This document shows, piece by piece, positions 6,737 to 34,851 of a stretch of 37,518 bases of DNA. The notes below the pieces were generated by a model. The model saw nothing but the letters and a program-made list of their open reading frames with translations. It had not been told where the DNA came from and did not search any database. Location: the IMG/VR virus record IMGVR_UViG_3300045996_000549, positions 1-37,518 of that record; one strand, written 5' to 3'. Made by a program: the position numbers and the translations under genes. How positions within the stretch are numbered: the stretch's first letter is position 1; every line of letters begins with the position of its first letter. This DNA comes from a virus.

Positions 6737-6785
6737 GCCCACGTCGCGAGACGTCGGCTTTCCCAGTCCCTCGCTTCGGCGGGGG
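6737..6785 (+). promoter_or_regulatory. structured capsid-gene leader: GNRA hairpin plus UUCG hairpin
   Basis: Two strong hairpins fill the gap before the capsid gene. The first has stem ACGTC/GACGT closing a GCGA (GNRA) tetraloop at 6741-6754, extended by GCC/GGC across a C-C mismatch, and is followed by TTTCCCA. The second has a 7-bp stem, CCCTCGC/GCGGGGG with one T-G pair, closing a TTCG tetraloop (6768-6785). A close relative of the first hairpin stands before the tail tube gene. A likely role is mRNA stability, processing or translation control for an abundant protein; this is inference. Confidence 0.6.
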
Positions 6786-6802
6786 CAAGATGGACATTTT
6801 CA

Positions 6803-8245
6803 ATGGGCTACGAAACGCAAATTGCTGCCTTCAGTGAGCAGCGCGCAGCCAAGGCGGCCGCGCAGAAGACCATCATGGACGACGCCGCTGGCAAGGGCGA
6901 AACGCTCGACGCACAGCAGCAGGAAGACTTCGACACGCTGCAGGGCGAGATCGAGGCAATCGACGCGCACCTGAAGCGCCTCGGCCTCATGGAGAAGGCC
7001 GCTGGCATCTCCGCGACTCCGGTTGCCGGCGACACGGCTGCAAACGCTTCCGCTTCCCGCGGCGGCGAGCGTATCCAGGTCAAGGCAGAGCCCAAGCTGG
7101 ACGGCGGCATCGCGCTTGCCCGTCTTGTGAAGTGCTTCGGCATGGCGAAGGGCAATCTCGACCAGGCCAGCCGTATCGCTCAGAACCGTTACGGCGAGCA
7201 GTCGAATGCGTTCGGCACGCTCAAGAGCCTCGCCGATCGCGGGTTCACCGCAATCGAGAAGGCGGAAGTTCCTGCTGGTTCAACGCAGTCGGGTTCGTGG
7301 GCCGAGGATCTTGTCGGCGACACGACTTCGGCGTTCGCGGACTTCCTCGAGTATCTGCGTCCGCAGACGATCCTGGGCAAGTTCGGCAACAACGGCATTC
7401 CGTCGTTGCGCCGGGTTCCGTTCCGGGTTCCGCTGATCAGCCAAACGGGCGGCGGCGCCGGTTACTGGGTCGGGGAAGGCAAGGCGAAGCCGCTGACCAG
7501 CTTCGACTTCGCTCGCACGACGCTCGAGCCGCTGAAGGTCGCGAACATCGCCGTTCTGACGGATGAGGTCATTCGTGACTCCTCGCCGTCGGCCGAAGCG
7601 ATCGTCCGTGACCAGCTTGTCGAAGCCCTGAAGGCGCGTCTCGACATCGACTTCATCGATCCTGCGAAGGCCGCTTCTGCGGGTGTTTCGCCGGCCTCGA
7701 TCACGAACGCTGCTCCGAATGGCGCGGCCTCGGGAACGGGCGATGCGGACGACGTTCGGGCGGACATCCGTTCGCTGCTGAACGAGTATGTCACGGCGAA
7801 CAACCCGCCGACGACGGGCGTTCTGATCATGCAGTCGGGAACGGCTCTCGCCCTCTCGATGATGGTCAATGCGCTCGGCCAGTCGGAGTTCAACGGCATC
7901 GGAATGAATGGCGGAACCCTTCTGGGAATCCCCGTCATCACGTCCGAGCATGTGCCGGCGGGCATCGTCGTGATGATCAACGCATCCGATGTTTACCTTG
8001 CAGACGAGGGCGGGTTCCGTCTCGACATGAGCCGTGAGGCTTCGGTCGAGATGCTCGACTCTTCGCTGACGGGTGACTCGATCGGCGTTGTCCCGGGAAC
8101 GGCGGCTTCGACCGTCAGCCTGTGGCAGACCAACAGCGTCGGCTTCCTCGCGGAGCGGACGATCAACTGGGCGGCTCGTCGCGCAAGCGCAGTGGCCTAC
8201 TTGAGCGGTGTTGCCTGGGGCGGCGCCGTCAACGACCTGAGCTAG
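6803..8245 (+). CDS. major capsid protein, HK97 fold
   Basis: This 480-residue protein forms the icosahedral shell. Residues about 1-100 are an Ala/Gln/Glu-rich coiled-coil delta (scaffold) domain, removed by the protease upstream. The shell domain follows, with SGSWAEDLVGDTTSAF, a P-loop/spine region with RRVPFRVPLIS, and E-loop-like GGGAGYWVGEGKAKPLTSFDF (around residues 214-234). The C-terminal A-domain includes LLGIPVITSEHVP and WAARRASAVAYLSGVAW. The ATG at 6803 has only a weak GATGGA site; a better-placed GGGGG precedes an out-of-frame ATG at 6790. A terminator-like hairpin follows the gene. Confidence 0.95.
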   Translation: MGYETQIAAFSEQRAAKAAAQKTIMDDAAGKGETLDAQQQEDFDTLQGEIEAIDAHLKRLGLMEKAAGISATPVAGDTAANASASRGGERIQVKAEPKLDGGIALARLVKCFGMAKGNLDQASRIAQNRYGEQSNAFGTLKSLADRGFTAIEKAEVPAGSTQSGSWAEDLVGDTTSAFADFLEYLRPQTILGKFGNNGIPSLRRVPFRVPLISQTGGGAGYWVGEGKAKPLTSFDFARTTLEPLKVANIAVLTDEVIRDSSPSAEAIVRDQLVEALKARLDIDFIDPAKAASAGVSPASITNAAPNGAASGTGDADDVRADIRSLLNEYVTANNPPTTGVLIMQSGTALALSMMVNALGQSEFNGIGMNGGTLLGIPVITSEHVPAGIVVMINASDVYLADEGGFRLDMSREASVEMLDSSLTGDSIGVVPGTAASTVSLWQTNSVGFLAERTINWAARRASAVAYLSGVAWGGAVNDLS

Positions 8246-18522: not shown

Positions 18523-18524
18523 TT

Positions 18525-18590
18525 CCCCGCGAGGGGATAGCCCGAACCGACCCTTGGGCAAGGTCGAACCGCAGCGTCGTGAGACGCCGC
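18525..18590 (+). promoter_or_regulatory. structured leader upstream of the tail tube gene
   Basis: The gap 18523-18611 holds three hairpins. The first is CCCC-GCGA-GGGG, a GNRA loop right after the stop codon. The second is CGAC/GTCG with an inner CTT/AAG (around 18548-18566). The third is GCGTC-GTGA-GACGC at 18574-18587, extended by GC/GC across an A-C mismatch and followed by TTTCCCA. The last hairpin copies the form of the one before the capsid gene, with A-T changed to G-C in the stem. GGAG at 18603-18606 is the ribosome binding site. Confidence 0.6.
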
Positions 18591-18611
18591 TTTCCCATGA
18601 TGGAGCCTTAA

Positions 18612-19070
18612 ATGACCGAAGCCCGTATTGGCTGGGGCGGCGAACTGCACGTCTCGACCGACGACACCGAAGCTAATCTCGTTGAACTGCTCGAGGTTCG
18701 CGAGGTCGGATTCCCGAGCAGCGAGGCCGACGAACACGAGGTCACGCATCTCAAGTCGCCGAACCGCCGCAAGGAATACATCGCCGGCCTGATCGACGGA
18801 GGTGAGTTCACGGCAACGCTGAACTATGATCCCGGCAACGCGACCGATCTTCTGCTGACTGCCGCTCAGGACACGGGCGACACCCGCAAGGTCAAGATTG
18901 TCATTCCGGACAACAGCGGCACGGGAACGGCCGACTGGAACATGGTCACGAGCGCCTTCGTCAAGCGTTGGGCGCCGGACAACATGGAAGCGAACGCTCC
19001 CATCACCGCGACGGTCACGTTCCGCGTCACGGGTGCGCTTGAACAGGGTACGGGCACGAGCGGTTCCTAA
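18612..19070 (+). CDS. phage tail tube (major tail) protein
   Basis: This 152-residue, beta-rich acidic protein matches tail tube proteins: a strand-rich N-terminus, a FPSSEADEHEVTHLKS segment (about 34-49), then GEFTATLNYDPGN (about 63-75) and closing strands (ITATVTFRVTGALEQ). Hexamers stack to form the tail tube. It has its own GGAG site and a structured leader, consistent with high expression. The next gene overlaps by one base (TAATG). Position before the tail chaperones and tape measure gene is canonical. Confidence 0.88.
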   Translation: MTEARIGWGGELHVSTDDTEANLVELLEVREVGFPSSEADEHEVTHLKSPNRRKEYIAGLIDGGEFTATLNYDPGNATDLLLTAAQDTGDTRKVKIVIPDNSGTGTADWNMVTSAFVKRWAPDNMEANAPITATVTFRVTGALEQGTGTSGS

Positions 19071-33991: not shown

Positions 33992-34851
33992 GCTGCCACC
34001 GGCTCTCGTTTATATTGGGGCGTGATGGCGGGCATCGCTGGCAACGATTTCATCACTAGGAGTTTGCTTACTCGGACGCCCTGATAATGGTTAACGAACC
34101 CGCGCAGAACGATTTCAATCTTCGTCTGCGAGGTGGCCTTACCTTCAGAAATCAGACGGTTCCTTGCTGCCAAGGCGCCATCGCCCAGCAGAAGCCCTTC
34201 ACCCGACGCGACCTTCCCCAGATAACTCTCAGCGACGTCAACGCCGTAATGCTGGCCGATCAGCCAGAAACAGAAGCCCATCACCGTCGGGCTTGCTACG
34301 CCCGTAACGCTGTGTCGATGCCCGAACTTGGCCGCGTCTGCTAACGTAGGATCGTCATTGAGCAGGCCCATCACGTCAGCGCGAGAAACGTCATTCATGC
34401 GGCCAATGGAGCGGCCATCTCCCCGCAGCCAGGCAAAGGCTATGCGCCCAATCGCGGCCAGAGTGTTTCCATTTTCGAACCCTGACATTTGGAACACGTC
34501 GCCCGTAGTGCGCGCCACGCCCTGATCTACCGTTGAGCGGGCATCAGTTGGAATGCCGACCACAACCACACTCGAAATGGACTTTCCGCTCGCAGCGCAG
34601 GCGGCCAAGCGGTGCTGTCCGTCCAGAAGAGCGCCGTCTTCAGAAAAGACGATGCTTTCCCCGTTGAGAGTAAACCGCCCGGCATGGACATCGTGGGTCA
34701 GTTGCTCGACCTTCGATTGCTTCAGGGTTCTGTTTGCCTGATTGCGCGTCTCGAGGATGCTCTTCGCCACTGCGGGAGTGATCGTGAAAAACCCTGCGTG
34801 CAGCTTGGGGACGATGAGGTTCTCACGGAAGGGAACAAAGACGGTGGTCAT
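33988..34851 (-). CDS. ParB/DGQHR-like protein of the early minus operon
   Basis: The 287-residue protein begins TTVFVPFRENLIVP. It contains the ParB/sulfiredoxin-fold motif ALLDGQHRLAAC (about 82-93), preceded by a region (QLTHDVHAGRFTLNGESIVF) usual for DGQHR-type phage proteins. No clear DNA-binding helix-turn-helix is present. Such proteins are often found with nucleases or recombination genes; the role is not known. ATG 34851 overlaps the upstream stop (ATGA). An upstream ATG at 34881 would add ten residues. Confidence 0.65.
   Translation of the reverse strand: MTTVFVPFRENLIVPKLHAGFFTITPAVAKSILETRNQANRTLKQSKVEQLTHDVHAGRFTLNGESIVFSEDGALLDGQHRLAACAASGKSISSVVVVGIPTDARSTVDQGVARTTGDVFQMSGFENGNTLAAIGRIAFAWLRGDGRSIGRMNDVSRADVMGLLNDDPTLADAAKFGHRHSVTGVASPTVMGFCFWLIGQHYGVDVAESYLGKVASGEGLLLGDGALAARNRLISEGKATSQTKIEIVLRGFVNHYQGVRVSKLLVMKSLPAMPAITPQYKREPVAA

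Follow-up and report, generated by a model that had tools for sequence, protein, structure and literature searches.

Several phage control elements are built on small RNA hairpins. The coat-protein operator of RNA phages (MS2/Qbeta type) consists of a small hairpin close to a start codon, in which one base is unpaired and the loop is fixed. The boxB of phage Lambda has a GNRA-like loop which tolerates versions of 4 or 5 nt. The leader of T7 gene 10 carries a hairpin ahead of the major capsid gene and boosts expression; it is not known to have a homologue family across unrelated capsid genes. In phage T4, the leader pseudoknot of gene 32 and the operator hairpin of gene 43 control translation initiation (PMC3014915).

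The window analysed here, the whole 37,518-nt stretch of the IMG/VR virus record IMGVR_UViG_3300045996_000549, encodes a terminase, a prohead protease, an HK97-type capsid, a lambda-type tail tube, and a tyrosine integrase, and is a temperate tailed-phage record. Its capsid and tail-tube leaders carry a GNRA-loop hairpin that recalls each of these systems in part. With the MS2/Qbeta operator it shares the small hairpin, the unpaired base, and the fixed loop near the start. Unlike that operator, it has a loop of the GNRA class, lies upstream of the Shine-Dalgarno sequence and not over the start codon, belongs to dsDNA tailed phages, and precedes coat and not replicase genes. With Lambda boxB it shares a GNRA-like loop in 4- or 5-nt versions, whereas it does not stand at operon starts but occurs several times per operon before individual ribosome binding sites, and its conserved box, UUUCCC, lies on the 3' side. 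A Lambda-type nut site, with boxA upstream of boxB near the start of an antiterminated transcript, was rejected because the element lies between genes, just before ribosome binding sites. The T7 gene 10 leader is likewise a hairpin-bearing leader ahead of a major capsid gene, but has no sequence relation to it. The inner hairpin also resembles helix 36 of 16S rRNA (UGUC-GUGA-GAUG); by a rough estimate, a chance match among the GNRA hairpins of rRNA is likely. Finally, the T4 operators are similar in being structured RNA just upstream of a phage ribosome binding site, but they are autoregulatory, serve one gene each, and are bound by the product of that gene (PMC3014915), whereas the present element is shared by many unrelated virion genes, and the bearer phages compared showed no protein in common.

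Searches of known families and of the literature returned no counterpart of the element. Rfam 15, scanned at gathering and at permissive thresholds, gave no match at the window leaders. The leaders of eight bearer loci gave nothing either (only a distant tRNA was matched), nor did those of seven two-hairpin loci even at E<=1, where one sub-threshold snoRNA match lay elsewhere in the locus. Among the papers listed, exact-sequence searches of the literature found the strings in unrelated uses only, and topic searches found no description of the element. As a cis-acting leader, the element is of a known kind; its sharing across unrelated virion genes is new. Judged from its sequence relatives, it is very probably a new and widely shared control element for the production of virion proteins.

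The features of both leaders are collected in Table 1. The initial annotation had placed a hairpin with TTTCCC directly behind it in each leader, and this description holds: TTTCCCA occurs exactly twice in the 37.5 kb, both strands included (6759-6765 and 18591-18597), each time abutting one of the two GNRA hairpins. The window has just 16 perfect GNRA hairpins, both strands summed, if 5 or more pairs are required and no more than one G-U pair is allowed. The predicted folds of both leaders include the GNRA hairpin; the stability of the whole leader is not unusual for the capsid gene (z -0.64) and has a z of -1.66 for the tail tube. Beyond what had been described, the leaders contain the GATGGA boxes, a TTCG-capped hairpin ahead of the capsid gene, and a second hairpin ahead of the tail tube gene. 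The tail-tube leader holds both hairpins together with GCCT, and the capsid leader has the GNRA hairpin without the second one. A further hairpin, TCCCC-GCGA-GGGGA (18524-18537), lies right behind the stop codon of the gene preceding the tail tube. A third match of the covariance model in the window (34628-34661, 19.7 bits) is antisense to a gene, has a 9-nt loop, and is probably due to chance.

Table 1. Positions of the leader features and the genes behind them in the window
Feature	Position	Strand	Basis or remark
Capsid-leader GNRA hairpin, GCC-C-ACGTC-GCGA-GACGT-C-GGC	6737..6758	+	covariance model 24.5 bits; predicted fold; covariation in relatives
Parts of the capsid-leader hairpin			outer stem GCC/GGC, C.C mismatch, inner stem ACGTC/GACGT, loop GCGA
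Capsid-leader TTTCCC box, directly 3' of GNRA hairpin	6759..6764	+	kept in relatives
Inserted TTCG-capped hairpin, CCCTCGC-TTCG-GCGGGGG, in the TTTCCC-to-GATGGA gap of the capsid leader	6768..6785	+	optional part of the element
Capsid-leader GATGGA box, presumed Shine-Dalgarno	6789..6794	+	start codon 8 nt downstream
Major capsid protein (HK97 type; PF05065 Phage_capsid, Pfam)	6803..8245	+	ATG at 6803
Second hairpin of the tail-tube leader, GACC-CTTGGGCAA-GGTC, GGGC in loop	18549..18565	+	stem pairing in relatives
Tail-tube-leader GNRA hairpin, GC-A-GCGTC-GTGA-GACGC-C-GC	18571..18590	+	covariance model 47.9 bits; predicted fold
Parts of the tail-tube-leader hairpin			outer stem GC/GC, A.C mismatch, inner stem GCGTC/GACGC, loop GTGA
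Tail-tube-leader TTTCCC box	18591..18596	+	directly after GNRA hairpin
Tail-tube-leader GATGGA box, presumed Shine-Dalgarno	18599..18604	+	start codon 7 nt downstream
GCCT, candidate pseudoknot partner of the GGGC loop in the second hairpin (complementary, one G-U pair)	18605..18608	+	co-occurrence statistics
Tail tube protein (PF16461, Lambda TTP, Pfam)	18612..19070	+	ATG at 18612

The element is widespread in IMG/VR. Relatives were gathered in three ways, namely by capsid homology, by the hairpin plus TTTCCC, and by the 3' half alone (CTTTCCCWTAGATGGA). Capsid homology yielded variant hairpins at the equivalent site of five loci (L002, L003, L016, L032, L048), for instance CGCC-GTGA-GGCG and CGTC-GAGA-GATG. 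The search with the hairpin plus TTTCCC returned 63 viral-contig stretches, nearly all immediately upstream of a structural gene. The third scan uses no letters of the hairpin, so its set is free of ascertainment on it. Here, a GNRA hairpin was present in 24 of 36 distinct upstream sequences, compared with 0.93% of shuffled ones. An ORF start followed 5-12 nt after the GGA in all 24 hairpin-positive cases but in merely 2 of the 12 hairpin-negative ones, and one of these two (L253) has an imperfect hairpin. Thus, the proposal of a conserved RNA element ahead of high-copy structural genes agrees with the related sequences, also in the hairpin-blind set.

The consensus reads from the 5' side as an outer stem of 2-3 bp, one conserved mismatch (C.C, A.C, C.U and similar), an inner stem of 4-5 bp, a GNRA or GNRA+1 loop (GTGA, GCGA, GAGA, GTGAT, GAGAT, GTGAC), and UUUCCC. 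After 2-4 nt or an inserted hairpin, it continues with GAnGGA and, about 8 nt on, the start codon; over 96 distinct elements, the mode of the GGA-to-start spacing is 8-9 nt. The box abutting the stem may also read UUCCC, CUCCC, AUCCC, GUCCC, or UUCUC. Inserts similar to the TTCG hairpin of the capsid leader were seen in L032, L115, L109, and L148. Some leaders contain the GNRA hairpin twice. In one locus (L104, 10-150), a GP7-type capsid gene is preceded by two tandem GNRA elements; its frame seems to start at an ATC that follows GATGGAG. Comparison of these leaders shows the GNRA hairpin, the mismatch, UUUCCC, GAnGGA, and the start codon about 8 nt on to be one unit, recurrent before unrelated capsid, scaffold, and tail-tube genes.

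Covariation had been claimed from the two copies in the window, which by themselves cannot establish it; the survey of relatives does so, as stems are preserved by paired changes where the sequence varies. The inner stem occurs as CGTC/GACG, CGCC/GGCG, CGCT/AGCG, and CGTT/AACG, and the outer stem flips between GC and CG. Among the 24 hairpins of the 3'-half set, the loop-closing pair is CG in 13, TA in 10, and TG in one, the pair next to it is TA in 12 and CG in 12, and the outer pairs are GC/CG/AT in 14/7/1 and GC/CG in 16/6. Nearly all of them have exactly one unpaired place, at position 5 or 6. In a separate alignment, which was fitted to the model, 93.6% of cells were paired, and the covariation score exceeded all 500 shuffles and all slid versions. 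Relatedness was reduced by keeping one leader per downstream-protein cluster (40% identity, 56 clusters); as the detector constrains the inner stem, positions 5-8 are the free ones in this set. The outer pairs at positions 7 and 8 were formed in 49 and 40 of the 56 leaders, where shuffles averaged 25.1 and 27.9. Just one mismatch, at position 5 or 6, was present in 49 of the 56. Inner positions 3 and 4 are nearly invariant and hence uninformative on pairing; similarly, UUUCCC and GGA vary too little for a test of pairing between the two.

The genes served are diverse. The 347 elements with an ORF (a redundant count) fall into 35 single-linkage families of downstream proteins; most are major capsid, scaffold, and tail-tube proteins, and their lineages are unrelated. 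Among the families scanned, capsid types include PF05065, PF20911 GP7, PF11651 P22 coat, PF17236 SU10, phrog_9953, and phrog_1005, and tail tubes include PF16461, PF18906, phrog_13196, phrog_1407, and phrog_158; a tail assembly chaperone was also found. Acidic scaffold-like ORFs, named by reading only, lie downstream of some elements. The single-copy families in the list include probable chance matches such as L172 and L176. Each phage has 1-3 copies, situated between genes and each upstream of its own ribosome binding site. For instance, contig 3300044640_000819 has one copy before the scaffold gene and one before the capsid gene. Contig 3300026095_000034 carries one before the capsid and one before the tail tube, so the pairing of genes noticed in the window recurs in another phage.

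The second hairpin has the covarying form stem-CUUGGGCAA-stem with GGGC in its loop, and precedes the GNRA hairpin in many leaders. A scan for GCCCTTGGGCAAGGC found at least 120 stretches; among the matches listed, 103 are distinct, of which 86 have an ORF with a Shine-Dalgarno-like sequence downstream; in 34, the GNRA hairpin comes next. The joint pattern gave 79 distinct two-hairpin leaders, 75 of them with a start codon. Of these 79, 74 have every pair of the second hairpin's stem formed, where shuffles gave 22.7, and 65 have the outer pairs of the GNRA hairpin, where shuffles gave 21.0. Moreover, the stretch from GGA to the start contains GCC in 86 of 89 leaders that carry the second hairpin compared with 24 of 86 that lack it, and the co-occurrence persists after clustering (19/20 vs 13/36, p 1.3e-5). 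As GCCY in the Shine-Dalgarno-to-start spacer tends to accompany the GGGC loop, pairing of the two in a candidate pseudoknot is suggested; the loop hardly varies, hence the basis in co-occurrence. As a separate observation, the stem-CTTGGGCAA-stem version is very common ahead of the capsid and tail genes of phages, whether the GNRA hairpin is there or not (L319-L437, L439-L504). Rhodobacter phage RcapNL (L547, 5955-6010) has this CTTGGGCAA hairpin and GGAGCCC before its major tail gene, which carries a gene-transfer-agent-like annotation. A host-genome match to the pattern (L548) has no ORF behind it and is probably due to chance.

A conserved RNA structure thus stands at a fixed distance from the Shine-Dalgarno sequence and the start codon, as expected of a structured translation-initiation leader. 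On the whole, we think it probable, with some reserve, that the hairpins are copies of a mobile, cis-acting leader of this type serving high-copy virion genes. The coding-strand GNRA loop, the compensatory changes, and the fixed spacing to the start point to a unit read in the mRNA, where it would act at translation initiation. One or both hairpins may hold the initiation region in a defined shape beside the 30S footprint, the GNRA loop with its mismatch could offer a docking surface for a host factor or the ribosome itself, and the UCC/GGA and GGGC/GCCY contacts might switch the Shine-Dalgarno region between an open and a closed state. As a result, the proteins most abundant in the virion would be made in large amounts, possibly at a set time. 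A comparison of 11 bearer phages (BLAST at E 1e-4, ORFs of at least 60 aa, some contigs incomplete) yielded no protein family present in all of them; the most widespread, an integrase-like family, was present in six. This points to the ribosome or a conserved host protein, and the reader of the element is probably one of the two. A more specific version, in which one or two hairpins and the pseudoknot of the CUUGGGCAA loop with GCCY would form a mobile, gene-independent platform read by the host 30S or a host RNA-binding protein, raising the output of abundant virion proteins within a single operon, is put forward as speculative.

A leader of this kind would matter because phages need hundreds of copies of capsid and tail-tube proteins but few of other parts from one operon. 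If true, a leader that capsid and tail-tube lineages of unrelated origin have in common would be a shared solution to this problem of unequal dosage, as well as a handle on a host RNA-binding partner and a ready, portable expression part. Additionally, the element is a sequence marker of high-copy virion genes in unannotated viral contigs.

The initial annotation had left processing, stability, and translation side by side; the fixed distance to the Shine-Dalgarno sequence and start favours translation initiation, and the other two remain its rivals. As an element of mRNA processing or stability, the hairpin would mark or block a nuclease, with a host RNase such as RNase E cutting at UUUCCC, or would shield capsid mRNA from 5' decay. 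RNase E is reported to prefer RN-WUU, which GC-UUU fits. RNase E processing upstream of the start is described for T4 gene 32 mRNA (PMC3014915). On its 3' side, the hairpin abuts a single strand containing U; it is placed between the genes of a polycistronic operon and is confined to genes that require more mRNA than those around them. The sequence signature of such an element would be largely that of a translation leader. A cut site, however, would not require constant spacing to the start, a GAnGGA box, or preservation of the GNRA fold, and the U run is lost in the variants CTCCC, ATCCC, and GTCCC. This explanation is possible but doubtful.

An operator bound by a phage-encoded protein, comparable to those of RNA-phage coat or T4 gp32/gp43 and governing the timing or autoregulation of virion genes, appears unlikely. 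It would suit a one-mismatch hairpin of constant loop fold immediately ahead of the Shine-Dalgarno sequence, and also the GCC co-occurrence, which hints at a pseudoknot contact with the spacer between that sequence and the start. However, the many unrelated genes downstream, with several unrelated capsid families and tail tubes among the 35 families, rule out autoregulation by the product as a general rule, and the comparison of the 11 bearers with the above settings yielded no shared protein to bind it.

A DNA-level site, that is, a palindromic operator or late promoter element before structural genes, is very improbable: an inverted repeat before genes of a single late operon would agree with it, but the loop is always GNRA on the coding strand, the stem changes are compensatory and of several kinds where a DNA operator would keep its half sites, and the start-codon spacing is fixed. 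Moreover, no sigma-70-like promoter was found at either leader. An intrinsic (rho-independent) terminator was also rejected, as the tail is TTTCCC and not a T run and neither leader has a terminator-like site on the sense strand. A promoter or terminator is also at odds with the service to single genes inside an operon. GC-rich hairpins arisen by chance or convergence, for which the mere two copies in the window and the ordinary stability of the capsid leader might speak, are already refuted by the hairpin-blind scan and the covariation, leaving them a negligible probability.

Even among close relatives, the element is patchy. The initial annotation had asked whether related phages lack the hairpins at these two genes, and the answer is divided: they are absent from the capsid gene in many of the capsid relatives of the window phage fetched and from the tail-tube gene in 22 of 22 tail-tube relatives fetched, but present in other capsid relatives. 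These absences count against the reading as a translation-initiation leader; the element is gained and lost readily. Gammaproteobacterial relatives of one bearer tail-tube family have a short leader only, without the element, and most named alphaproteobacterial phages tested are without it. Weak matches were noticed in Brevundimonas phage Bajun, Sphingomonas phage Birtae, and RHph_X2_26. A strict no-insert pattern gave zero matches in 385 Alphaproteobacteria and 398 Pseudomonadota genomes, but it is blind to insert forms and also gave zero in a known bearer (G001); within the same limit, these genome surveys showed no chromosomal, non-phage use. The examples come mostly from environmental viral contigs; of the isolate genomes, those of Brevundimonas bullata and Alteraurantiacibacter buctensis have the element before capsid genes, the former with a further copy before a tail-fibre-like gene. 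Separately, Rhizobium phages 16-3, RHph_TM3_3_14B, and RHph_Y3_1 (L543, L544, L545) have long capsid leaders which share a different hairpin-rich sequence, CCCGGC..GCCGGAGGGC..GTCCTGCC, possibly another leader RNA.
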